Made by a program: the position numbers and the translations under genes. A DNA stretch of 43,066 nucleotides from Lachnospiraceae bacterium (GTDB taxonomy: Bacteria; Bacillota; Clostridia; Lachnospirales; Lachnospiraceae): NCBI GenBank assembly GCA_015057515.1, contig SVED01000010.1, forward strand, positions 1-43,066, written 5' to 3'. Shown here piece after piece: positions 4,853 through 17,189 of this stretch (position 1 is its first letter; each line of letters opens with the position of its first letter). Below the pieces are notes generated by a model. It saw only the letters and a list, made by a program, of their open reading frames with translations, made no database searches and was not told the DNA's origin.

Positions 4853-5942
4853 AGAATTCCACACCTTCTACATACCAATCCATACTTTTCATAAGTATAT
4901 CATCACTAATAGCTTCACCATAATTACATCTAATTTTTCCTTCTGTATCATATATAACTCCAGAAAATATTGCCATACCATTAATTATATCCTGCTTTGC
5001 ACTTTCTACCCGAGATAACGTATCTTGAGTTACAACTGCTGATATATCTGATAATCCTATTGCATCTTTATCCAAACCAAACCAGTAAGAATTCACCTCA
5101 TTCGACTTACCTTTTTTATAGTCTAATATCAATTCTTTGTATGTGAAATCCCAATGAAACTCCACTGTAGCTAAATACTTTTCCGAAACTCCTTCAGGCA
5201 TTTCATGATATCCAATAGAGTATACGTTATTACTCTCTGCCACTTCCACCACATTTGGCTGATTCTGGTGATATGTAAGAACATCCACATCACACCCGTC
5301 TATTAGCGCTTGTGCTAATCTTTTTTCCTCCTCAGCATCATCCCAAGAATTGCTCCAAGCCACAATTACTCTTGCATTAGGATTCACACTTTGAACTCCC
5401 AACGTAAAAGCATTTATACCACGATTAACCTCGCTGTTTGGCATAGCTGCAACATATCCAATAATACCTGTCTCTGATTGCATACCAGCTATAATACCAG
5501 ACAAATATCTTGCCTGATATATTCTCGCAAAATAACAATTCAGATTGTCTCCATAATATTCAAAGTTTTCGGAGTAAAAAGTAATATCCGGATATTCTTC
5601 TACAACATCTACTACCTCCTCAGCATATCCATAACTGGACAAAATAGTAATATCTATATCTTCTTCTGCGAGTTCGCGTATAGCTATCTCACACTGACCA
5701 GAATTTTCTTTCACATTCTCTTTTACAATTAATTCTACTTCTAATTCCTTACAAGCGGCATCTATTCCCTGATAATGCAGACCATTCCAACCTTGCTCAT
5801 CAGTACTTCCCGACATAATAAAGCCTACTTTTAATTTATCTGCCTTCTTTTCACCTGTAAATACAAACATACTTACCATCGTAGATATGATAATAAGCAT
5901 AACTATCAGCAGGGAAAAACCCAAAAACTTCTTACTCTTCAT
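4842..5942 (-). CDS. BMP/PnrA-family binding protein with uncleaved membrane anchor (second copy)
   Basis: Member of the basic membrane protein family (Med, TmpC, PnrA), which binds nucleosides or other small solutes outside the cell; 366 residues from ATG 5942. Residues 8-28 form a hydrophobic anchor with no lipobox cysteine, unlike typical BMP lipoproteins. Family features: KVGFIMSGSTDEQGWN, RYLSGIIAGMQSETG and EVNRGINAFTLGVQSVNP. A longer frame reaches 6014, but those 24 codons lie inside the preceding gene and the GGAGGG site fits 5942. Clear paralogue of the gene upstream; both end in a WYVEGV..YEE tail. No permease or ATPase gene is adjacent, so a sensory rather than transport role is inferred. 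Ligand unknown. Confidence 0.85.
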   Translation of the reverse strand: MKSKKFLGFSLLIVMLIIISTMVSMFVFTGEKKADKLKVGFIMSGSTDEQGWNGLHYQGIDAACKELEVELIVKENVKENSGQCEIAIRELAEEDIDITILSSYGYAEEVVDVVEEYPDITFYSENFEYYGDNLNCYFARIYQARYLSGIIAGMQSETGIIGYVAAMPNSEVNRGINAFTLGVQSVNPNARVIVAWSNSWDDAEEEKRLAQALIDGCDVDVLTYHQNQPNVVEVAESNNVYSIGYHEMPEGVSEKYLATVEFHWDFTYKELILDYKKGKSNEVNSYWFGLDKDAIGLSDISAVVTQDTLSRVESAKQDIINGMAIFSGVIYDTEGKIRCNYGEAISDDILMKSMDWYVEGVEFYEE

Positions 5943-7029
5943 ATATGCATACGCCCTCCACATACCAGTCAAAAGAATTAAGCATAACTTCATCAGGCAT
6001 ATTTTCACCCTCACCGATTCTTAAGTTTCCTTCTGTATCAACGATGGGGCCATAAAACACATCAAAAGTACCTTCGTCCAACATGGTTCTTTTCTCAGCC
6101 ACAACATCTCCAATACCAGCCTTTACATTATCAGTTAAAGGAGATAAATTGACTAATCCTGTCTCAGAACCTTCCCAGTAATTTCCAGAGTGATACTTCC
6201 CCTGTAAATATTTAGTTATCTCATGAATATAAAAAGTATCCCAATCCCAAACAGCAGCTGTCAAAAAGCTATTTGGATATAAATCGCTATTGTCCATATT
6301 ATATCCTATAGACCATATGCCACTTTCCTCTGCCACATCTAATGGAGCCACGCTATCACAATGCATAGCCAGAATATCAACATCACATTCATCAACTAAA
6401 GTTTGTGCAGCCTGTCTATTTACCTCGTAATCTGTCCACGATTCACTCCAAACTACATAAACAGTAGCATCAGGATTCACAGATTTAACACCAATTGTAA
6501 ATGCATTTATGCCACGATTCACCTCAGATATAGGATATGCAGCTACATATCCTATAGAATCTGTCTCAGTCTGCATTCCGGCTACTATACCACTTAAATA
6601 TCTCATCTGATACATTCTCCCAAAATATGTAGTGATATTGTTTCCCTCTTCTGTACCTGTAGCATGCAAAAACACTATCTCTGGATTTCGTTCCGCAACC
6701 TGCACCATCCACTCACCATAATTAAAAGAATTACATATAATTATCTCGCAACCATCATCAATCATTGTCTGCATAATATCCATACAGTTTTTATCAAAAG
6801 GTACATTTTCCTCATATATTATTTGGAGATTAAGTTCTTCCGCCGTAATGGAAATACCCTCATAGTGAGACTGTCCCCAACCCTTATCATCTATCTCACC
6901 ATTGTAAATAAAACCTACCTTTGTAGTCTTATCTGTTATATCTGTATCAGACTTATTTCCAGTTATAAAGAAAATTCCTATAATTATGATAGTCAATATA
7001 CTGACAGTGATAATAATCAGTTTCTTCAT
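5932..7029 (-). CDS. BMP/PnrA-family binding protein with uncleaved membrane anchor (first copy)
   Basis: First gene of the signalling operon; 365 residues. N-terminal hydrophobic helix (about 3-23) without a cysteine, then a periplasmic-binding-protein fold of the BMP family: KVGFIYNGEIDDKGWGQSHY, RYLSGIVAGMQTETDSIGY and EVNRGINAFTIGVKSVNPD. The ATG at 7029 is preferred over the ATG two codons upstream because AGAGGG stands seven bases before it but only one base before the other. It overlaps the second BMP gene by 11 bases. The anchored form and the absence of ABC transporter genes suggest it captures a ligand for the kinase downstream. What it binds cannot be read from sequence; nucleosides are the commonest family ligand. 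Confidence 0.85.
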   Translation of the reverse strand: MKKLIIITVSILTIIIIGIFFITGNKSDTDITDKTTKVGFIYNGEIDDKGWGQSHYEGISITAEELNLQIIYEENVPFDKNCMDIMQTMIDDGCEIIICNSFNYGEWMVQVAERNPEIVFLHATGTEEGNNITTYFGRMYQMRYLSGIVAGMQTETDSIGYVAAYPISEVNRGINAFTIGVKSVNPDATVYVVWSESWTDYEVNRQAAQTLVDECDVDILAMHCDSVAPLDVAEESGIWSIGYNMDNSDLYPNSFLTAAVWDWDTFYIHEITKYLQGKYHSGNYWEGSETGLVNLSPLTDNVKAGIGDVVAEKRTMLDEGTFDVFYGPIVDTEGNLRIGEGENMPDEVMLNSFDWYVEGVCIYEE

Positions 7030-7068
7030 ACTCATACCCTCTTAATGAAAAATAATCATAAATAATGT

Positions 7069-7104
7069 ATAGACACTTTACCATATCAAAGGAAAAGTGT
7101 CTAT
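7069..7104. promoter_or_regulatory. Inverted repeat upstream of the BMP/kinase operon
   Basis: ATAGACACTTT (7069-7079) is repeated inverted as AAAGTGTCTAT (7094-7104) with a 14-base loop. It lies between the end of the EAL gene and the start of the first BMP gene. No clean T tract follows on the minus strand, so it could be a weak terminator of the EAL gene or an operator of the signalling operon. A TTGATA hexamer lies in the loop (7084-7089), which favours an operator/promoter role. Confidence 0.45.
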
Positions 7105-7149
7105 TTTGTAAATATTTTTTCTGTTATGTCTCCTGAAAACATATCGCAT

Positions 7150-9084
7150 CTATGCCCTATTATGCTTTAATACAAATGCAATAAAATCATCCCTTGGAAT
7201 AGGCTTTGAAAAGTAATATCCCTGTATATATTCACATTGCATATCAGCGAATTTGTTAAGAAGCTGTTCTGTTTCAATACCTTCAGCCACAATCTCCATC
7301 TCCATGTCCTTAAGCATCTTAATAGTATTCTCTAAGACTATAAACATCTTAGGATTATCCTCAGCGTTAACAAAGGTTCTATCAAGCTTTACAATCTTAA
7401 GAGGGAGAGTAGAAACTCTCTGGATATTTGAATAGCCTGTTCCATAATCATCCAATGAAAATTCAATTCCTGCATCATTCAGTTTACCTATATTTTCAGC
7501 CATAATATTCTGAGAATATGACGCCGCCGTCTCAGTTATCTCAAGATTAATCTTATCAGGCGATACATCATAACGCTTAAGTGTTTCTAAAACGAGCTCT
7601 GGTAATTCTTTATGCATACATTGCGCTACGGAAAGATTAATCTCAATATAATCTATTCCCAGCTTGCCAAACCCATCACTTGCAATAAAGCTACAAACCT
7701 CGTCCAACACATATGCACCAATCTTGTGAATGGCACCACTTTTTTCCGCCGCCGGAATAAATATGTCAGGTGAAATAAATCCAAACTTATCATCTACAAG
7801 TCTAAGCAGAGCCTCTGCAGAATTAAATCTCTGCTCTTTAATTGAATAAATCGGCTGATAGTACACGTGAAACTTTTTGTTTGTTATAGCATTTTCTATG
7901 ATTCCATCCAGATTACTATGTAAGTCGTACTGTTCCTTTTTAAATATATATTTGGCATAAACTATCTCACCAGTATAATCATTGTCAACAGAAAAACGTT
8001 CGCCAAAGTACATAAGCGTTTCATAATTATCAAAATCTTCCGGGCATCTGGCTATACATATGTGGGCAATAAGATTTACATCCATATGTTTGATGTTTAC
8101 ACCCCTCTTTAATGCTTTATTAATAACAGACGCTGTTGCTTCTATGTCATTGGCATAATAGGAATCAATAACAAACCTAAAACGTCCTTTATCTAAGTAA
8201 TAAAGATCTGCGTGTAACTTATTTTTCTTGTTTAACTCAGCAAGCTTACCAGCAATCAAACGTAGTAAATCATTAGTTGTGTCAAAACCTAACATATCCC
8301 TTATTGAATTGAAATTAGCTATGTTTATAAGTATGATGTGAACGTGTTTTCCATTTGAAAAGCCCTTTTTTATATCTGCTGTATATCCAGTAAGCTTGTG
8401 AAGACCAGTTATTATATCAACATTTTCCTCAGGACGTTGAATAAGCATAGTTATAAAAAGAAGCCCTACTGTTGTAGCAAACATTTCTACCGGATACCGA
8501 GGATAAAACATCTGAAACACTGTTGCCAATGTCACAAGTCCAAAAACGGACATAAGGGCCCAAAAACGACTTTTTCTAAATAGTTTTTTGTAGTAACAAA
8601 TGTATGAAATACCATAAACGGCGTACATAAATCCCGCTACATAAACCAGCGGAAACCATTCACCTCTTGTGTACACAAAGTTATCATTAAGATAAAATGT
8701 CTTATGATTAAATGCATTTATAACAATCAACACACTTATTATAATGAGTGGTAATGGTAAAACAATAGTATTAAATAAATGATTTCTAATAACATGCCAT
8801 GTATCGGTAAGTGCTACTAAATATGTTATGTATAATGGGATTGTAAGGCTATGAAAGAACAGATATCCACTATGAACAATGTATTTTAGTGTTTCATTGT
8901 GCGCTGAAAGGTTATCTAAAGTAATAGCCCATATATCAAAGATAATTGTCAGAAATGTAATAATAACAGTTGCGAGATAATAGCGATTGACCCTTCCATG
9001 TGTCATTCTACGAGAAATAACAGACGCAAGAATAAGGATACATATAACCAAAGCACAATAGTCAAAATATGCAACTTTTTCCAT
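7150..9084 (-). CDS. Membrane GGDEF-EAL protein, predicted c-di-GMP phosphodiesterase with degenerate GGDEF
   Basis: 644 residues. Six to seven hydrophobic helices fill residues 8-218. The GGDEF domain (about 222-375) has lost its signature: DKGRF stands where GGDEF is expected, so cyclase activity is unlikely, though GTP binding as a regulator is possible. The EAL domain (393-640) keeps EALLRL (from 424), EINLS, LEITET, DDYGTGYSN (from 545), KLDRTF, VAEGIET and QGYYFSKP, hence probably active. A start at 9114 is open, but ATG 9084 has GGGGAGG seven bases upstream and is preferred. It sits just downstream of the lipoprotein gene and upstream of the BMP operon, with its own likely promoter at 9124-9152. 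Confidence 0.88.
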   Translation of the reverse strand: MEKVAYFDYCALVICILILASVISRRMTHGRVNRYYLATVIITFLTIIFDIWAITLDNLSAHNETLKYIVHSGYLFFHSLTIPLYITYLVALTDTWHVIRNHLFNTIVLPLPLIIISVLIVINAFNHKTFYLNDNFVYTRGEWFPLVYVAGFMYAVYGISYICYYKKLFRKSRFWALMSVFGLVTLATVFQMFYPRYPVEMFATTVGLLFITMLIQRPEENVDIITGLHKLTGYTADIKKGFSNGKHVHIILINIANFNSIRDMLGFDTTNDLLRLIAGKLAELNKKNKLHADLYYLDKGRFRFVIDSYYANDIEATASVINKALKRGVNIKHMDVNLIAHICIARCPEDFDNYETLMYFGERFSVDNDYTGEIVYAKYIFKKEQYDLHSNLDGIIENAITNKKFHVYYQPIYSIKEQRFNSAEALLRLVDDKFGFISPDIFIPAAEKSGAIHKIGAYVLDEVCSFIASDGFGKLGIDYIEINLSVAQCMHKELPELVLETLKRYDVSPDKINLEITETAASYSQNIMAENIGKLNDAGIEFSLDDYGTGYSNIQRVSTLPLKIVKLDRTFVNAEDNPKMFIVLENTIKMLKDMEMEIVAEGIETEQLLNKFADMQCEYIQGYYFSKPIPRDDFIAFVLKHNRA

Positions 9085-9123
9085 GCAACAGCCTCCCCTC
9101 GCTAAAAATCCCATATATATTAT

Positions 9124-9202: not shown

Positions 9203-10564
9203 CTAATCATCATATGTATGTGATAATATTACACGTTCACCTATATCAGCGGCCTCTCCACGAACACCACAGAGCTTACAAAACTGCACTTCCTGGGTTA
9301 TTTCATACTCGATACGTTCTCCTTCTCCATCTCCGGCGCAGTTAGCCCAGCCGTGACAGCACGCATAAAAATCAACTTCTCCAGTATAGTCAGGCGATAC
9401 TGATGTAACTCCATTCGAGCCATCATTCAAGTACACCATACCATGAACATTTGGAATATCCATATGAACTCGAAGTTCTTCATAGGTATCAAAATACCAT
9501 CCACTATGACAGCAAAAGTCTTCATCAGGAGTACACTCTACACCAGTATTAGTTTGAACAACGATTTTCCAGTCATGGGTGTGTGGTGCTCCACAAAGCA
9601 TACAATTGATTTCACCATATCCATATGCATGACTACATGTAGATTGTGTCCCCTCTGAATCAGATGGCACCGTATAATCAGATGGGGTATATGTTTCATT
9701 AACCCCAGTATCCACTTGTGATATTTCCATACCAGTTTCTGATGTTGTAACTGTTTCAGTAACAGGCGCTTCATTTGAGGCCTGGTTAGATTCTTCATTA
9801 ACCCCAAATGAAGAAACATCAGTATTATTACTTACAATTACTTCTACCTCTTCCGAGTCTACTACAATAAACAAATCTTCTTCTGTGCGATAAAAGTTTA
9901 ATATTTCTTCGTGTTCTTCAGGTAACTCACCATTCTCTAATAAGTCTGGTGTACCAAGAAATCCATCAATGCAAATTAGTATTGCCGAACCATCATCTAA
10001 CGAATAGTATAATGCATGCAATGTAGTTTTAGAACCGCCATCATAAACCGCATCAACTTTATATTCAACAATACCATTGTCCAAATTTTCAGGTTCGCTT
10101 ACATCATAGTACCAACCATCTTGCCACTCCATACACCAATTAATGAAATAATATTCACCATTATCCATTTCATATGTAACAACTGCTCCTGAATCAGCAG
10201 AAAGATTAGTAATTAAACGATTTTGTGTAGTATAAACTTCAGAGTTCGATACACCACCCGTATGCACTACTTCAGGATAAAAACTTGTAAGTGGTGCAAT
10301 TTTTACATAAACCTGTCTTCCATCATCTAAGCTAAGAGGATAATCCACGTAGTATTCCTCTGCGGATAATTCAATAATTTCTTTTTCAGGCTCTATTGCT
10401 TCTGTAGACTCCGTTGTAAGTTCTTCAGTAGTTTCAGTATCAGAAACAATTTCTTCTGTTGTGGTAGTTTCCTTTTTACTTCCACATCCGCCAAATGTTA
10501 AAAGTGTTATAAGCATCATAATTAGAAAAGTATATCTTTTTTTATTAAGTATATTCTTTCTCAT
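9203..10564 (-). CDS. Lipoprotein of unknown function with cysteine-rich C-terminal half
   Basis: 453 residues. Residues 11-26 are hydrophobic and end in FGGC, giving a lipoprotein with Cys27 at the new N-terminus. A Thr/Glu-rich linker follows (about 30-65), then a mixed domain (70-230), a second low-complexity linker, and a C-terminal section with CSHAYGYG, CMLCGAPHTHDW, CCHSGWYF, CCHGWANC and CKLCGVRG. The paired CxxC and His-rich pieces suggest metal binding or disulfides. The family is not recognised. GTG 10573 is open, but ATG 10564 lies six bases after GAGGTG. It begins 28 bases after the sigma factor gene stops, so the two are probably one operon and the lipoprotein may be its target, partner or ligand. 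Confidence 0.75.
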   Translation of the reverse strand: MRKNILNKKRYTFLIMMLITLLTFGGCGSKKETTTTEEIVSDTETTEELTTESTEAIEPEKEIIELSAEEYYVDYPLSLDDGRQVYVKIAPLTSFYPEVVHTGGVSNSEVYTTQNRLITNLSADSGAVVTYEMDNGEYYFINWCMEWQDGWYYDVSEPENLDNGIVEYKVDAVYDGGSKTTLHALYYSLDDGSAILICIDGFLGTPDLLENGELPEEHEEILNFYRTEEDLFIVVDSEEVEVIVSNNTDVSSFGVNEESNQASNEAPVTETVTTSETGMEISQVDTGVNETYTPSDYTVPSDSEGTQSTCSHAYGYGEINCMLCGAPHTHDWKIVVQTNTGVECTPDEDFCCHSGWYFDTYEELRVHMDIPNVHGMVYLNDGSNGVTSVSPDYTGEVDFYACCHGWANCAGDGEGERIEYEITQEVQFCKLCGVRGEAADIGERVILSHTYDD

Positions 10565-10592
10565 ATTGTTCACCTCGTATTATTCTTTAATA

Positions 10593-13436
10593 TTATTGGT
10601 TAACCACTGTTGACATATCTATGAACTGGATATCAAGTGGTTTGCTACCTCCTGTAAGTTCAGAGATTTTTGCTTCTAATTCGGCATTGTCATAAAAAAT
10701 CACATCGGAGACCATATAGTTTTCATCAACTATTTCCTCGTAATATATAGTTCCATCTCCGTCCTTATCATATAAAGCAAGATATTCACTCTCAGTCTCA
10801 CTGTCCATTCCATAAGGAGATTGATACCAACTTATACTCCAATTATCATTACAATTCCAAATAAACTCACTTTCACCTGATACAGCATCCCACTTTCTTA
10901 TTCCAATACCATCATAGTTGAATATATAATATCCATTTTCATAAAATTCTATGGCATTTACAGTGGTAACCTCTGCTGTCCAGCTATATTCTTCCTTAAC
11001 CTGCATATTGTTACTATCATACTCATAAATCTTTATGTATGCACCATATCTTATTATCAATTCCTCAACACCATCTCCATCCATATCACAGATGGCATAA
11101 TCGTAGGTTTCACTCCAGCCTTGACGTTCCTGATGCTCATAGTAGTTCCCAAATGGGTCAGTTTGATACAGATAAAAATCTTCTACAATCTTCATATACT
11201 GGGCATTATCAACATCTGCAATATCTATATTTTCTGCAACAGTACTGATATCAACAAACTCTAATTCTATCTTCTTACCACCTAATACAACCTGATTAAT
11301 CTTTGCCTCTAATTCTGCATTGTCATAAAATGCCACAGCATTTCGTTCATAATTTTCATTGTACTCAACCTCAATCCAAATCAAACCATCTTTATCCGTA
11401 TCATAGGTATTCAACAACTCTTCTTCCTGGGCTATGTATTCAGGATTATTTATATTTTCCAAATAGGCATATCCACCTACTTCCCCATACACATAGTATT
11501 TGAGTCCTATACAACTCCAAATAACTGTGTCCTTATTATATACATCACTAGTTTCGTCCCTTTTGATTACGTCAGTAATGTTAAGATATTCCTGCACTAT
11601 AAATCCACTGTCGTAGTATCCGCATACACCGAAAAATGTACCTCCTGCACATCTATACTCTTCAACAACTACCTGAGTATCCGGATTATAGCCATATGCT
11701 ATCTCGCCCTGTGTTCCCTGGTTTAGTCTCACAATTAATTCAACTAAACCATCACCATCTATGTCACAAATAGCATATTCTGTAGCTTCTACTGTTGTTT
11801 CCTCCGCATAATTACCTACATACTCAAGTTTATTACCAAATGGGTCTTTACCATAAAGATAGAAATTTTGTAAAACCCCCATAAAATACTCTCGTACAAG
11901 TTCATTTTTTGCGTCCAACTCAGCCTGAATAGCTGTAGCTTCCGCTATTAATTCAGCCAGTTTTTCTTCATATGCAATATGATATTTCTCATAAATCTCT
12001 TTTGCATTTTTTGGTGTCTCACAGTCGCCTGTAATAGTGATTGTCGTGATGTTTTCTTCTTCATCATACTTTACTTCTACATCATTCACATGAAGTACGA
12101 ATTTTTCACCATCTATGGTAAATTCTATTTTTTTATCAAAAACGGCATCTACATCTTCACCTTCTGCATTCACTGCATTATCATACTCTCCTTGGTGAAT
12201 TTCCTCTAATTCAGGAGATAATGTCTCATGTGAATCGTACCCATATTGGTATATCTCACTATCAAATCCAACAGTTATCTCTTCATCGTTATATGTGACA
12301 TTTATATATTCATAAGAAAATCTGTCATCCGGATTATCTATTGTTTCATAATTAGGTGTTGACTCCATATTAACAACCATAGGTGTTGTTTTTGGCATAT
12401 CATCTTTTGTAACAGCATTGTGAATTGCCACTCCACCAGCCACTATCAAGCCTGTAGACAAAAGTCCTGCCGCTATCTTACCACCCAAGGTTGCTCCCAC
12501 TTTTCCCAGAATACCTTTTCCAACTCCTGCTGCCACTGCATTTCCTGCAGATGAGACACCACTTACTGCAGCATCTTTACTTATCTCAGCAGACATTCCC
12601 ATAGGTGACATTCCTTCGCTAGCATTTTCTAATACAGATCCGAGCATTAAAGAAGCTCCTTCGTCAAAAGCTGTAGCTCCCACCATAGCGGTAGCTCCTT
12701 CACCTACACCTGCTGTGGTTGCTGCAGTTCCTACCATAGTCGTTCCAACAGCTGTTGCTCCTACAAACATAAACTCTTCCACTGCATATCTAAATACAAT
12801 ATGGAATAATGGAATAGCGCTCAAGCTGTAGAGTCTTGTGCCCTTATTCTCAGCTAAGTCAACAACTGCAGCCTTTATGGCTTTTCTAGCGTAATTAAGG
12901 CGGCTCATAACTGTTCCTCTTGAGCACTCCATAACCTCAGCTATATCAGTTACCGACATTTCTTCATAGTAGAAATACTGCACTGTAATCTTCTGCTCTA
13001 CAGATAATCCATCTACTATCTCTGCAATAAGACGTTGTTTTTCTCTGTCCATTAAAATATTTTCTGGTATAAACTCCTCGTTATCCTGAGTTGCAACCTC
13101 GAATGCAAATTCGGCTGCACCATCCTCAGAATCAAGCATGAGTAATTCTCTATTATTTTTCTGAATATAACGCAATGTAAGGTTAGTGGCTATTCTACCT
13201 GCCCAGGAATAAAACTTAGTTACATCCTGTAACCCATTGATTTTGTTATAAATAGTAAGATATGTTTCCTGAACCAAATCCTCTGTTGTATGATAATCCT
13301 TAACTATGTCGTATACTATCTTGTATATGTACTTTATTGACAGGTCATACATAACATAGTAGCTGCCCATATCACCTGCCATAAGATTAGCAACAGCGTT
13401 GAATAATTTTTGGTCTTCTTCGTAATAGCGATTCAT
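10593..13436 (-). CDS. ECF-type sigma factor fused to a membrane helix and a duplicated extracellular domain
   Basis: 947 residues, against about 180 for an ordinary ECF sigma factor. Residues 20-95 match sigma region 2 (YKIVYDIVKDYHTTEDLVQE) and 135-190 match region 4 (LSVEQKITVQYFYYEEMS, then a helix-turn-helix with CSRGTVMSRL). A Gly/Ala/Met-rich stretch (225-315) leads to one TM helix (about 318-340). Outside follow a domain (350-480), a helical spacer (480-515) and two related units (about 515-735 and 740-947), each with a DPFGN motif, a YAICDxDGDG loop, a second D-K-DG loop and the closing FYDNAELEAKI. The four DxDxDG loops look like calcium sites. ATG 13436 is eight bases after GGAGG; the ATG at 13451 overlaps that site. 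No separate anti-sigma gene is seen, so control by the fused domain is inferred. Confidence 0.87.
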   Translation of the reverse strand: MNRYYEEDQKLFNAVANLMAGDMGSYYVMYDLSIKYIYKIVYDIVKDYHTTEDLVQETYLTIYNKINGLQDVTKFYSWAGRIATNLTLRYIQKNNRELLMLDSEDGAAEFAFEVATQDNEEFIPENILMDREKQRLIAEIVDGLSVEQKITVQYFYYEEMSVTDIAEVMECSRGTVMSRLNYARKAIKAAVVDLAENKGTRLYSLSAIPLFHIVFRYAVEEFMFVGATAVGTTMVGTAATTAGVGEGATAMVGATAFDEGASLMLGSVLENASEGMSPMGMSAEISKDAAVSGVSSAGNAVAAGVGKGILGKVGATLGGKIAAGLLSTGLIVAGGVAIHNAVTKDDMPKTTPMVVNMESTPNYETIDNPDDRFSYEYINVTYNDEEITVGFDSEIYQYGYDSHETLSPELEEIHQGEYDNAVNAEGEDVDAVFDKKIEFTIDGEKFVLHVNDVEVKYDEEENITTITITGDCETPKNAKEIYEKYHIAYEEKLAELIAEATAIQAELDAKNELVREYFMGVLQNFYLYGKDPFGNKLEYVGNYAEETTVEATEYAICDIDGDGLVELIVRLNQGTQGEIAYGYNPDTQVVVEEYRCAGGTFFGVCGYYDSGFIVQEYLNITDVIKRDETSDVYNKDTVIWSCIGLKYYVYGEVGGYAYLENINNPEYIAQEEELLNTYDTDKDGLIWIEVEYNENYERNAVAFYDNAELEAKINQVVLGGKKIELEFVDISTVAENIDIADVDNAQYMKIVEDFYLYQTDPFGNYYEHQERQGWSETYDYAICDMDGDGVEELIIRYGAYIKIYEYDSNNMQVKEEYSWTAEVTTVNAIEFYENGYYIFNYDGIGIRKWDAVSGESEFIWNCNDNWSISWYQSPYGMDSETESEYLALYDKDGDGTIYYEEIVDENYMVSDVIFYDNAELEAKISELTGGSKPLDIQFIDMSTVVNQ

Positions 13437-13462
13437 TCTCTCATCCTCCATATGATTATAAA

Positions 13463-13621
13463 TTAGTAATTGTTATTCTTTTCATCAATTTTTTCTTTTA
13501 TTCGTAATTTTATTCGTTCAATAATTTTAGTAGGGATAAATATATACCCTGTTTCATGCCTAAACACCTGCCACAAAATTGGGATCTTTTCATTATTTTT
13601 TTCTTCGAGCTCATTTATCAT
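13463..13621 (-). CDS. Small hypothetical protein, 52 residues
   Basis: Short basic protein with a Glu/Lys-rich N-terminus, a central ILWQVFRHETGYIFIP segment and a charged C-terminal helix. ATG 13621 has AAAGGA about 11 bases upstream; the frame is also open from 13660 but without a ribosome site. The stop lies 26 bases before the sigma factor start, consistent with co-transcription as a leader gene. No family is recognised and no signal peptide or membrane segment is visible. It could be a chance frame. Confidence 0.4.
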   Translation of the reverse strand: MINELEEKNNEKIPILWQVFRHETGYIFIPTKIIERIKLRIKEKIDEKNNNY

Positions 13622-13698: not shown

Positions 13699-14598
13699 TT
13701 ATGCTTCCAACTGATTAATCTTTCTTCTCACTTCTTTTGCTCTTCGCTCTGTTCCATTTATATCAACATGAAAATAGCCAACTTCTTTTTTACGTGCTCC
13801 TTCTAAGCCTCTTTCTAATCTTTTAAGCTCATTTTTATATTTGTTAATATCAGAAGATTTCTTATTAACCACTTTTGGCTGTTTTACTCCTCTATCCAAA
13901 ACATTTTGAACACCAGCTAAAGGTGTCGAAACCATTCCACCAAAAGGTAAAATAATTTTCATTGCACCAAATATAACAATAAGAACACCTACAAACAACG
14001 CTACCTTTACCAGGTAAACAATAATCTGGATTAACATCAAATAAATAGGTAATCCAATTACATGAGTTCCAAATACCTTAAGAGGTTCCTTTATACTATT
14101 ATACTCATTATCTATTGATGACATTTTTGTCAATTCACTAAATACAAAAATCAAACCTGATATAACTGCTATAGGCAGACACACTAATTTAACTAAACCA
14201 AAAATACCTACAGCAATATTTCTAGCCTCAAAACTAACTAGACATATAATATTTACAACAACTGCAAACATCAATCTCTTTACCTTGCCATTTCTATTTT
14301 CCTTTTGAAATCTGTCCATAGCATTAAGCACTGCAGAAACAATAAATATCCACATAATTACTTTTAATGGAAATGTTCTATACATAGTATCAGTTGTATA
14401 GTCAAATTTACTTGTAAAAAATCCAATCACACCTATAATAGCTGTAATTAAAGATATTGTAACTGATATCATCTCCAATGAACACACCAGCTTCATATAT
14501 TTACTTTTTTCTGTTCCATTCCCGGTTAATTTACTGTTTAACTTAAATGCTCCAAATCCCTTTTTATAAATTTCTCCAATAAATTTTAATGTTTTCAT
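13699..14598 (-). CDS. Multi-pass membrane protein of unknown function
   Basis: 299 residues with about six hydrophobic helices: roughly 43-63, 78-95, 108-150 (two), 180-203 and 205-228. It ends in a positively charged, predicted coiled-coil tail (about 245-299) rich in Lys, Arg and Glu. No catalytic or transport motif was recognised. Start ATG 14598 follows a GGAAGGAAG site. It precedes the small ORF and the sigma factor on the same strand with short gaps (77 and 26 bases), so an operon is possible. The charged tail could contact a cytoplasmic partner, but this is only inference from composition. Confidence 0.7.
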   Translation of the reverse strand: MKTLKFIGEIYKKGFGAFKLNSKLTGNGTEKSKYMKLVCSLEMISVTISLITAIIGVIGFFTSKFDYTTDTMYRTFPLKVIMWIFIVSAVLNAMDRFQKENRNGKVKRLMFAVVVNIICLVSFEARNIAVGIFGLVKLVCLPIAVISGLIFVFSELTKMSSIDNEYNSIKEPLKVFGTHVIGLPIYLMLIQIIVYLVKVALFVGVLIVIFGAMKIILPFGGMVSTPLAGVQNVLDRGVKQPKVVNKKSSDINKYKNELKRLERGLEGARKKEVGYFHVDINGTERRAKEVRRKINQLEA

Positions 14599-14781
14599 AT
14601 ATTTCTTCCTTCCTTCATCTTAAATATTTTTTTACTTATTACACTATGCAACGAATAGTCTTTTTCTTTTTGCCATTTTATCTTCCAAACAAATCACTTC
14701 CTTTCGACTTATACTATATAGATACAAGTTTTTTGGATTTGATTTTATAAATTTTAAATTTTTTTAAATTTTTTTAAAAAT

Positions 14782-14837: not shown

Positions 14838-15668
14838 CTATTTACACATATCAAGAAGATATGGTATAGCAGTTTCAAAGTTTACTCCGTACCAGCAACC
14901 ATTCTCATCTTCCATAGTAATACGGATACACTCAGCAGTATAATCAGCCGCAACCTTAAGAGCATCCTTCCAGCTCTTACCTCTCATAAGACCACCTACA
15001 AATGTGCTTGCAAATACATCGCCTGTTCCATGGTAGCTCTTTGCATGCTTCTTATGTGAATAGTAGAAATATTCATCATTTTCCTTGTCATAGCCCATAA
15101 CACCAGTTGTTCCCTCTTCAAAACTTACGCCTGTAAGAACCGCTATCTTTGCACCAAGACCAGCTAACTTCTGAAGCATTTCTTTTACATAGGCCTCATC
15201 ATATACTTCCTTATACTCCATTCCTGTCATAAAAGATGCTTCTGTTATATTTGGAAGAATAACATCTGCCTTTGCACAAAGTGTTGCCATCTTGGCTGCA
15301 AAAGCCTCGTCAAATGCTGGATAAAGCTTACCATTGTCAGCCATAACAGGGTCAACAACTGTAACATTATCATCGGTTTTAAACTCGTCAAACATATTTG
15401 CAATAATATCTATCTGCTCAAAGGAACCAAGATATCCGGTATAGATAGCATCAAAGCCTAACTTCTCATCCTTCCAGTGCTTAGTTATAGGAACTATCTC
15501 ATCTGTTAAATCCTTACAAGTAAAATTAGAAAACATAGTATGAGTTGACAAAACTGCTGTTGGTATAATGGCAGTCTCAACGCCCATAGCTGATATAATT
15601 GGTAATGCTACTGTAAGAGAGCACTTACCTACACATGATATATCCTGAACTGTTACTATTCTTTTCAT
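14838..15668 (-). CDS. pdxY: Pyridoxamine/pyridoxal kinase (vitamin B6 salvage)
   Basis: Phosphorylates pyridoxal, pyridoxamine or pyridoxine with ATP to feed the pyridoxal phosphate pool. 276 residues, the usual length for the PfkB-fold PdxK/PdxY family. Motifs: VQDISCVGKCSLTVALP at the N-terminus, VVDPVMADNGKLY (from 104), LPNITEASFMTG (from 138) and the anion-hole GTGDVFAS (214-221). The ATG follows AGGAGG. It is divergent from a MocR/PdxR-type regulator gene across 123 bases containing an inverted repeat, the classical arrangement for pyridoxal-phosphate-responsive control. The symbol could equally be pdxK; the two families are hard to separate by eye. Confidence 0.9.
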   Translation of the reverse strand: MKRIVTVQDISCVGKCSLTVALPIISAMGVETAIIPTAVLSTHTMFSNFTCKDLTDEIVPITKHWKDEKLGFDAIYTGYLGSFEQIDIIANMFDEFKTDDNVTVVDPVMADNGKLYPAFDEAFAAKMATLCAKADVILPNITEASFMTGMEYKEVYDEAYVKEMLQKLAGLGAKIAVLTGVSFEEGTTGVMGYDKENDEYFYYSHKKHAKSYHGTGDVFASTFVGGLMRGKSWKDALKVAADYTAECIRITMEDENGCWYGVNFETAIPYLLDMCK

Positions 15669-15735
15669 AATAATTCCTCCTAAAACACAATATCAATCCT
15701 GTTTACAAATCTTATCAAACATATTATACTTATTT

Positions 15736-15779
15736 TGACCATATCAAAATACCCAAAATAAACTTTATAAATATGGTCA
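15736..15779. promoter_or_regulatory. Inverted repeat, likely operator of the MocR-type regulator
   Basis: TGACCATAT (15736-15744) and ATATGGTCA (15771-15779) form a 9-base inverted repeat with centres 35 bases apart, inside the divergent pdxY/MocR intergenic region. MocR/PdxR dimers commonly bind spaced repeated half-sites. On the pdxY side a TATAAT (complement at about 15724-15729) lies downstream of the first half-site and lacks a good -35 box, as expected of an activated promoter. Confidence 0.55.
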
Positions 15780-15791
15780 GATTGGAGTTTT

Positions 15792-17189
15792 ATGCTAACA
15801 TATTCTTTTGAAAACAAAGGGTCAGATAGCTTATATGAGTATTTATATAAGCAGATCAAAAATGATATACTTTCATTTAATCTATCCTCTGGGGAAAAGT
15901 TACCTTCCAAACGTGCTTTGGCAAAGCATCTTAATATCAGCACCATCACTGTTGAGAATGCTTACGCACAGCTTATGGCAGAGGGATATATATATTCTGT
16001 TCCAAAAAGTGGGTTTTATGTCAGCGATATCACCAACAGAAAAACCGAAAGCTCAGTTCCACGCTCAAAGAAAGAATCTAAAGATAGCTCCAAGCCTACA
16101 TACTTCGCAGATTTTGTAAACAACTCCACCAAAAAAGAGAACTTTCCTTTTTCCACTTGGAACAAGCTTATGAGGGAAATAATGTCAGATTACTCTGAAA
16201 AGCTTATGGTCAGATCTCCTTCCTCAGGAGTTATAGAGCTAAGAGAAGCAATTTCCGATTATCTATATCAGTTTCGTGGCATTGATGTGGAACCGGAACA
16301 GATTATAGTGGGAGCTGGAACAGAATACCTTTACGGATTAATCATTCAATTGCTAGGTAGAGATAAGGTATATGCCATAGAAGAACCTGGTTATCAGAAG
16401 ATTTCTAAGATATATGATGCAAATAGGATTTCATCTGTTCATATTGGATTGGACAATTCTGGTATAGATGTTTATGCTCTGGAAAAGTCGGGTGCAGATA
16501 TTCTTCACATATCACCATCCCATCATTTTCCAACAGGTATCGTAACCCCTATAAGTCGTCGTTACGAATTACTTTCCTGGGCAGCAAAATCACAGGATAG
16601 ATATATAATCGAAGATGATTATGATAGTGAATTCAGACTTTTAGGAAAACCTATTCCATCTCTACAAAGTATTGATGCGTTAGACAAGGTTATATATATG
16701 AACACTTTTTCTAAAAGCCTTACATCAACTATCCGAATCAGCTATATGGTTTTACCAAAAACCTTAATACAAAAATATAACAGAGAATTGAATTTTTATT
16801 CATGTACAGTTTCTAATTTTGAGCAATACACATTAGCAAAATTTATTCAATCCGGATATCTTGAAAAGCATATTAACCGCATGAGAAATTATTATCGTAC
16901 TCAACGTGACACAGTTCTTGGTTGCATAAAGGCACAACCAGATTTTTCAAAAACCACAATTAAAGAAGAAAACTCTGGTTTACATTTCCTGTTAGAGGTT
17001 AAAACCAACCTATCAGACCAAATCTTGATTGAAAACGCTAAGAAAAATGGCATACATATATCCTGTCTTAGCGAGTATTATTATCACAAGGAATATGCAA
17101 AGGAACACACTATAATAATAAATTACTCAGGTCTTGATAAAGAGGATATCCCCAAAGCCATATCAAGACTATATAGCAGTCTTTGGTAA
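15792..17189 (+). CDS. pdxR: MocR/PdxR-type regulator (GntR DNA-binding domain fused to aminotransferase-like domain)
   Basis: 465 residues, typical for the family. Residues 10-78 are a GntR winged helix (SLYEYLYKQIKNDILSFNLS, GEKLPSKRALAKHLNIS). The rest is a fold-type I aminotransferase-like domain with SPSHHFPTG (241-249), EDDYDSEFR (274-282) and the PLP-binding Lys308 in NTFSKSL. Such proteins sense pyridoxal phosphate or an amino acid and usually regulate neighbouring B6 genes. ATG 15792 has GGAG close upstream. The divergent pyridoxamine kinase and the inverted repeat between them support the PdxR role; the symbol is assigned by context and remains tentative. A bidirectional terminator follows. 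Confidence 0.86.
   Translation: MLTYSFENKGSDSLYEYLYKQIKNDILSFNLSSGEKLPSKRALAKHLNISTITVENAYAQLMAEGYIYSVPKSGFYVSDITNRKTESSVPRSKKESKDSSKPTYFADFVNNSTKKENFPFSTWNKLMREIMSDYSEKLMVRSPSSGVIELREAISDYLYQFRGIDVEPEQIIVGAGTEYLYGLIIQLLGRDKVYAIEEPGYQKISKIYDANRISSVHIGLDNSGIDVYALEKSGADILHISPSHHFPTGIVTPISRRYELLSWAAKSQDRYIIEDDYDSEFRLLGKPIPSLQSIDALDKVIYMNTFSKSLTSTIRISYMVLPKTLIQKYNRELNFYSCTVSNFEQYTLAKFIQSGYLEKHINRMRNYYRTQRDTVLGCIKAQPDFSKTTIKEENSGLHFLLEVKTNLSDQILIENAKKNGIHISCLSEYYYHKEYAKEHTIIINYSGLDKEDIPKAISRLYSSLW

Follow-up and report, generated by a model that had tools for sequence, protein, structure and literature searches.

The stretch of DNA analysed here (the window; 43,066 nucleotides) comes from a Lachnospiraceae bacterium (GCA_015057515.1, contig SVED01000010.1, positions 1-43,066). 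A gene on its minus strand (10593-13436) encodes a 947-aa protein in which an ECF sigma core, a predicted transmembrane helix, and a large, probably external part are joined in a single chain. The open reading frame spans 10593-13451 on the minus strand in the ORF list of the window. The start at 13436 is preferred over 13451 because GGAGG sits just 5' of that ATG. The features of the locus are as follows.

14717..14749, minus strand: predicted ECF-type promoter of the operon, TATAAAATCA-N14-GTATCTATA, upstream of the first gene (score 14.0)
13699..14598, minus strand: 299-aa protein, probably of the membrane to judge by its sequence; its gene is predicted to open the operon
13463..13621, minus strand: gene for a 52-aa protein, directly upstream of the sigma gene and conserved with the orthologue
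12852..13436, minus strand: ECF sigma core with regions 2 and 4 (residues 1-195), from Pfam, the SigW match, and pN/pS
12765..12839, minus strand: short hydrophobic segment of the LYSxxxxP type after sigma region 4 (residues 200-224)
12522..12764, minus strand: linker of variable length, rich in Gly, Ala, Met, Ser, and Thr (residues 225-305)
12420..12476, minus strand: predicted transmembrane helix (residues 321-339), from hydropathy and charge
11898..12419, minus strand: predicted outer spacer and a region without an assigned fold (residues 340-513)
11208..11897, minus strand: predicted outer unit 1 with loops DIDGDG and DTDKDG (residues 514-743)
10596..11207, minus strand: predicted outer unit 2 with loops DMDGDG and DKDGDG (residues 744-947)
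9203..10573, minus strand: predicted lipoprotein of 456 aa or slightly shorter, downstream of the sigma gene

The sigma core and its tether

The N-terminal part of the protein is an ECF (group 4 sigma-70) factor, that is, it has regions 2 and 4 without a region 3 domain. Sigma70_r2 matched residues 40-101 (E 1.4e-10) and Sigma70_r4_2 matched residues 140-192 (E 2e-8), both over nearly the full Pfam profile, and no match to sigma region 3 was found in the protein at E up to 1. By sequence, SigW (5wuq; E 9.3e-17) is the closest among solved structures. An orthologue in another genome (G345, locus L236) is fused over its whole length and is 63% identical. Comparison with this orthologue gave a pN/pS of 0.14 for the sigma core, the most constrained part of the protein. 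The corresponding values were 0.31 for the helix, 0.32-0.33 for the outer units, 0.44 for the segment after region 4, and 0.51 for the linker, all of them rough, as synonymous changes approach saturation (dS 1.1-2.4; undefined in the linker).

Region 4 is followed by the short hydrophobic segment. In the family alignment of 96 rows, at least 90% retain its residues L202 and P209, and a regular expression detected the LYSxxxxP-type motif in 67/111 fused relatives. It is possible that residues 200-224 contact the sigma core or the membrane surface. The segment could even act as a hidden anti-sigma element by folding back onto the core, a brake that the outer domain would relieve. The conservation of L202 and P209 would suit such a role, and the extensions of ECF41 sigma factors are described as inhibiting through contact with the sigma factor in the cited part of PMC8999054. 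However, the segment has changed more quickly than the sigma core, and its motif matches only a part of the relatives, so that we regard a fold-back brake as improbable. It could coexist with proteolysis.

The linker that comes next is at least 15 residues long in 85/111 relatives, with a median of 49 and a maximum of 155 among those 85. It aligns poorly even with the orthologue (39 of the 77 residues at 229-305), and the protein has no cysteine in residues 196-345. Hydropathy and charge then indicate a transmembrane helix between the sigma core and the outer domain. The helix has a mean hydropathy of 1.80, and the next separate segment reached 1.29; the family median is higher, at 2.38. K320, directly before the helix, is found in at least 90% of alignment rows. 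Hydropathy places a helix at 215-410 in 100/111 fused relatives. The other 11 lack one at the threshold used; seven of these come from a single genome (G252) and the rest are L139 and L231-L233. One of the seven proteins of G252 (L225) has a helix beginning at 206. In the helix-bearing relatives the net charge averages +2.84 before the helix and -0.64 after it, and the charge before exceeds the charge after in 94/100. This bias fits a topology in which the sigma core is inside and the tail is outside. An outside location of the outer domain is also supported by the occurrence of the same unit in apparent lipoproteins, described below. A preliminary description of this DNA had named the start at 13436, sigma regions 2 and 4, and one transmembrane helix; the analysis bears out all three, with the helix at 321-339 where 318-340 had been claimed.

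Outer units and the exchange of tails across the family

The approximately 600 residues beyond the helix contain, as first described, a duplicated unit bearing four DxDxDG loops. Residues 340-513 gave no Pfam match, and residues 344-505 are 50% identical to the orthologue. The two units after them (514-743 and 744-947) form a tandem duplication with 35% identity over 222 columns (E 6e-31). The loops start at residues 558, 679, 784, and 890; in 5000 shuffles of residues 344-947, DxDxDG occurred 0.03 times on average and at most once. Against solved structures, a profile of the unit matched cartilage acidic protein 1 (9etn; E 1.6e-6) and YesW (E 5e-6), in both cases over a short stretch around the first loop of the unit. 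We take both to be propellers with FG-GAP-type loops. Calmodulins were matched weakly around the second loop. In Pfam, the window protein scored 23.3 bits for FG-GAP_3 (cut-off 26.9) and 19.9 bits for EF-hand_1 (cut-off 25.4). The outer units therefore probably bind calcium.

The unit is not confined to this protein. It is also found on other fused sigma factors, including a paralogue on contig C28 of the same genome, in at least eight proteins (L071, L249-L255) whose N-termini carry a signal peptide and a lipobox as judged by eye, and in other membrane proteins. In total, the unit profile had matches in 31/117 genomes at E up to 0.001. A gene at 6542-7546 of locus L070, beside a fused sigma gene, has a similar Gly/Ala-rich stretch, a helix, and the calcium-loop unit without a sigma core.

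Is the fusion a genuine gene? The preliminary description had placed sensor and sigma factor on a single chain and had named, as findings that would refute it, homologues with separate genes and an assembly artefact. The homologue search found the orthologue and 111 other relatives likewise fused, which rejects the artefact, and the one-chain arrangement proved to be conserved across relatives. These 111 were kept from 114 ORFs of at least 330 residues that matched the sigma profile. The genome of the window itself, a draft that is 85% complete, encodes two further fused paralogues (contigs C28 and C8), along with sigma matches of ordinary ECF size. Open frames of at least 400 residues with a sigma match occurred in 17/24 genomes of the same genus, counted from the matches listed, and in at least 39 others among 299 evenly drawn family genomes. 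The 39 were counted among the matches listed, which are part of the candidates scored, and three of them (G138, G154, and G260) show no helix. Named genomes were scanned with a 7-row alignment from another family branch; the close relatives there were mostly Lachnospiraceae, several of them sampled from the gut of deer or sheep, while a few belonged to Saccharofermentans, Ruminococcus, Erysipelotrichaceae, and Thomasclavelia.

What follows the helix differs greatly among relatives. In a set of 113 tails, which includes those of the window protein and the orthologue, eight matched BspA-type leucine-rich repeats (E up to 0.001) and four matched FG-GAP. WG repeats, DUF285, and a DUF3108-like domain were found in three tails each and a lipocalin-like domain in two, and other families, for example SH3-like and F5/8-type, in one each. 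At most 39/113 tails matched any family at E up to 0.001. Judging from these matches, the outer part is exchanged across the family while the rest of the protein is kept. Because the calcium-loop unit is one of many family tails, calcium would more likely be structural than a general signal.

In a tree of 161 sigma domains, 49 ordinary ECFs grouped together with 6/112 fused rows, and the fused or ordinary label changed 3 times compared with a mean of 42.1 in shuffles. The fork between fused and ordinary ECFs had an SH-aLRT support of 92. In a first tree (158 rows, 6 changes), the six exceptions were both Thomasclavelia rows, L229, and L231-L233. A single main origin of the fused class is favoured but not proven, since many internal branches have weak support and the tree includes a sample of ordinary ECFs.

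The operon and its promoter-like site

Two neighbours of the sigma gene have counterparts at the orthologue's locus. The 52-aa protein shares 55% identity over 49 aa with the protein encoded upstream of the orthologue, and the lipoprotein gene has a 70% identical counterpart downstream of it. Across 37 genus genomes, the 52-aa protein reached E below 1e-10 in two, and its best match elsewhere was 0.09. The lipoprotein likewise had a strong match in 2/37, and 14 more genomes gave short, weak matches (E 1.7e-7 or worse). In fact, the outer part, the 52-aa protein, and the lipoprotein have their strong matches in the same 2/37 genomes. No other neighbours pair up between the two loci; the 299-aa protein is dissimilar to the product of the first gene of the orthologue's operon. 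The lipoprotein, which matched no Pfam family, is predicted to be a linked partner or target of the sigma-receptor. More generally, genes with a lipobox were enriched beside fused sigma genes (21/122 vs 12/313, p 1e-5, by a simple lipobox rule).

Several genes lie further out in the window. A GGDEF-EAL protein is encoded on the same strand directly downstream of the lipoprotein gene (7150-9114). A gene for a B6 ABC binding protein-like product, whose match is far below the model cut-off, a pyridoxamine kinase gene, and a PdxR-type regulator gene flank the operon (5932-7035 and 14838-17189). The flanking genes possibly form a vitamin B6 salvage cluster, and those of the orthologue differ from these B6-type neighbours.

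Upstream regions of the family share an ECF-like bipartite element of about AAnCCAACCT-N14-nCGTCTATA. In the training set of the promoter model, 49/103 family regions scored at least 11, compared with 1.5 when shuffled. When the model was trained on other genera, 17/44 upstream regions of the genus passed at 11 (shuffled 0.2), and 9/58 regions passed in the reverse training direction (shuffled 1.0). Upstream regions of other genes also passed at 11, namely 41/586 and, in the reverse test, 27/586.

The sites of the window, the orthologue, and the nearest paralogue (L040) are outside the sites on which the model was trained. Within 400 bases upstream of the window sigma gene there was no site (best score 4.5). 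A promoter directly before this gene was therefore rejected, as the site lies only upstream of the operon's first gene (14717-14749). This site is the best on the minus strand of the window and the fifth over both strands; it is outscored by four sites on the plus strand, the best of which (18.6) lies within the sigma gene at 11362. At the orthologue's operon, the upstream site is the only minus-strand site of at least 11 in a 14-kb locus, and at L040 the site is directly upstream of the paralogue and the best of its locus. All three sites share the form ATAAAAYCA-N14-GTATCTATA, preceded by an A/T-rich stretch. Among 334 loci this exact form turned up nowhere else, the three places being covered by 7 overlapping loci. 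Shortened by its first two bases, the form had exactly one match in the draft genome of the window. A degenerate regulon search of the same genome with up to 2 mismatches returned 16 sites vs 19 for a reversed-pattern control, that is, no excess. The simplest reading of these patterns is autoregulation of the operon, in which this sigma factor would recognize the site upstream of the first gene. In addition, a TAAAACCT-N14-CGTCTAGG promoter variant was seen in L193, L196, L205, and L210, which are 4/6 rows of one sigma subclade. This suggests covariation of promoter and sigma clade.

The promoter-like sites also bear on a reading in which the outer part mainly serves adhesion or structure, the sigma core being a degenerate passenger with no regulatory role. 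Such a reading draws on the eight BspA-type tails and the single SH3-like and F5/8-type tails, but a passenger would hardly be the most constrained part of the protein, nor would sites of this kind be expected before about half of the family genes, a proportion that comes from the training set and was cross-checked in the two tests above. We consider it highly improbable.

Possible ways of holding and releasing the sigma factor

The control of ECF sigma factors is usually explained by a separate anti-sigma protein. What holds the sigma core back when none is at hand? A fused zinc-finger anti-sigma domain was rejected, as the motif H-x3-C-x2-C was found in 0/111 fused relatives and Pfam gave no zinc-finger match in the window protein. 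At E up to 1, Pfam also gave no hit in this protein to a FecR-type anti-sigma domain, which we take to be the kind fused in IutY. A separate anti-sigma gene next door was rejected as well, because no anti-sigma family was matched in the window protein or in the six neighbouring genes scanned. Across the family, 109 neighbouring proteins were scanned (2 window genes and 107/151 eligible neighbours), and no anti-sigma family was among the 25 of 112 matched families listed. With no anti-sigma domain in these scans, the likely brake is either the membrane tether or the hydrophobic segment behind region 4.

We lean towards a model of a one-component transmembrane ECF sigma factor that is released by proteolysis and transcribes its own operon. 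The sigma core would be cytoplasmic, tethered by the flexible linker and one helix, and the two calcium-loop units outside would be a probable sensor or interaction surface. We infer that a signal at the outer domain would trigger a first cut outside the membrane, after which an RseP-type protease would cut within it. The freed core would then transcribe the operon of the membrane protein, the 52-aa protein, the sigma-receptor, and the lipoprotein. Computed features that speak for the model are the fusion itself, the helix and its charge bias, the unit in apparent lipoproteins, the grouping of fused sigma domains in the tree, the linked genes, and the shared promoter-like site. The architecture also follows the logic of ECF52, of IutY, which offers a precedent for release by proteolysis (PMC8999054), and of the RsgI sensors with their several paralogues (PMC12203970). 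A gene for an M50 site-2 protease is present, which says little because one was found in 14/14 control genomes. An exposed AA tag in the helix, as for RsgI, was rejected, since AA dipeptides were hardly more frequent than expected (69/100 helices vs 62.3 in shuffles). Counted against the model are the less hydrophobic helix of the window protein, the 11/111 relatives without a helix at 215-410, and the 6/112 fused rows that fall among ordinary ECFs. On the promoter side, the four better plus-strand sites, the lack of excess in the degenerate search, the upstream regions of other genes that pass, and the low yield of the reverse test count against it as well. Furthermore, the proteolysis reading is weakened because no anti-sigma-like domain is recognizable, unlike in the proteolysis-activated fusions described in the cited part of PMC8999054.

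The main rival is that the sigma factor acts while anchored. In other words, the outer domain would switch it by conformational change or clustering, and the flexible linker would give it the reach to RNA polymerase, as in membrane-bound one-component regulators. The low complexity and variable length of the linker suit this idea, as does the failure to recognize an anti-sigma domain, and the enrichment of lipobox genes beside fused sigma genes would suit expression near the membrane. However, a sigma factor must move with polymerase for a short time at least. In addition, the one characterized fused membrane ECF described in the cited part of PMC8999054, IutY, is freed by proteolysis. We think anchored action unlikely, though it is the strongest alternative to proteolytic release.

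Fused membrane sigma factors are already known (ECF52, IutY; PMC8999054, PMC5826349). ECF52 (SCO4117 of Streptomyces), ECF48, and ECF53 are like the window protein in that a sigma core, a transmembrane part, and an outer domain form one chain, and proteolytic release has been proposed for them (PMC5826349, PMC8999054). As described in the cited parts of these sources, however, they are actinobacterial and carry a zinc-finger domain, whereas the 111 relatives have no such motif and have other outer domains. ECF52 also has a carbohydrate-binding outer module; no such module was found by Pfam in the window protein, and the relatives of that protein come from Lachnospiraceae-type genomes. IutY of Pseudomonas putida (ECF243) is likewise a sigma factor fused with a membrane-bound regulator and is freed by Prc and RseP. 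As far as described in the cited part of PMC8999054, that regulator is an anti-sigma factor belonging to a siderophore system, and none was detected in the window protein. The SigI/RsgI paralogues of Clostridium thermocellum resemble the present family in having several paralogues with one shared signalling part and differing outer sensors, and their signalling involves an RseP step. In the account of PMC12203970 drawn on here, however, sigma factor and sensor are separate proteins and the sensor is the anti-sigma factor, whereas here they are one chain. Among the literature matches listed, none described this lineage, in which outer domains are swapped and an anti-sigma domain is missing; that absence carries little weight.

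Ruminococcus albus and Blautia producta, which we take to be gut Firmicutes, are represented in two numbered ECF groups. These groups, ECF262 and ECF288, respectively, have regulatory extensions and are listed as unstudied in mechanism (PMC8999054, Table 2). Because they are among the extension-bearing groups in that part of the source, a numbered group may already exist for the family. The extensions of ECF288 are described there as cysteine-rich, in contrast to the cysteine-free stretch of the window protein noted above, a comparison made by description.

A broader proposal, which we advance tentatively and rate as rather doubtful, is that the family is a Lachnospiraceae-wide class of receptor sigma factors. 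In such a class the tether alone would be the off switch, outer sensors would be swapped on a shared sigma chassis, and each member would feed itself from a nearly private promoter. One-chain receptors with swappable outer domains would offer a direct system in which to ask whether anchoring alone keeps a sigma factor off. They also suggest a compact and modular coupling of many outside signals to transcription in gut bacteria, and the family supplies a sequence-based promoter prediction that is open to immediate test.

Some minor observations concern the surroundings of fused sigma genes. A zinc-ribbon family was the commonest Pfam match among their neighbours (5/109, among the matches listed). 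Contig C16 of genome G252 (L223) has five fused sigma genes close together, and their tails give the impression of being repeat-rich. Lastly, a small ORF of ~75-110 aa lies just upstream of fused sigma genes at L223 and L224 (both G252), L198, L200, and L209. The encoded proteins, from several genera, are 29-70% identical in the pairs listed and give the impression of a small beta-rich fold.
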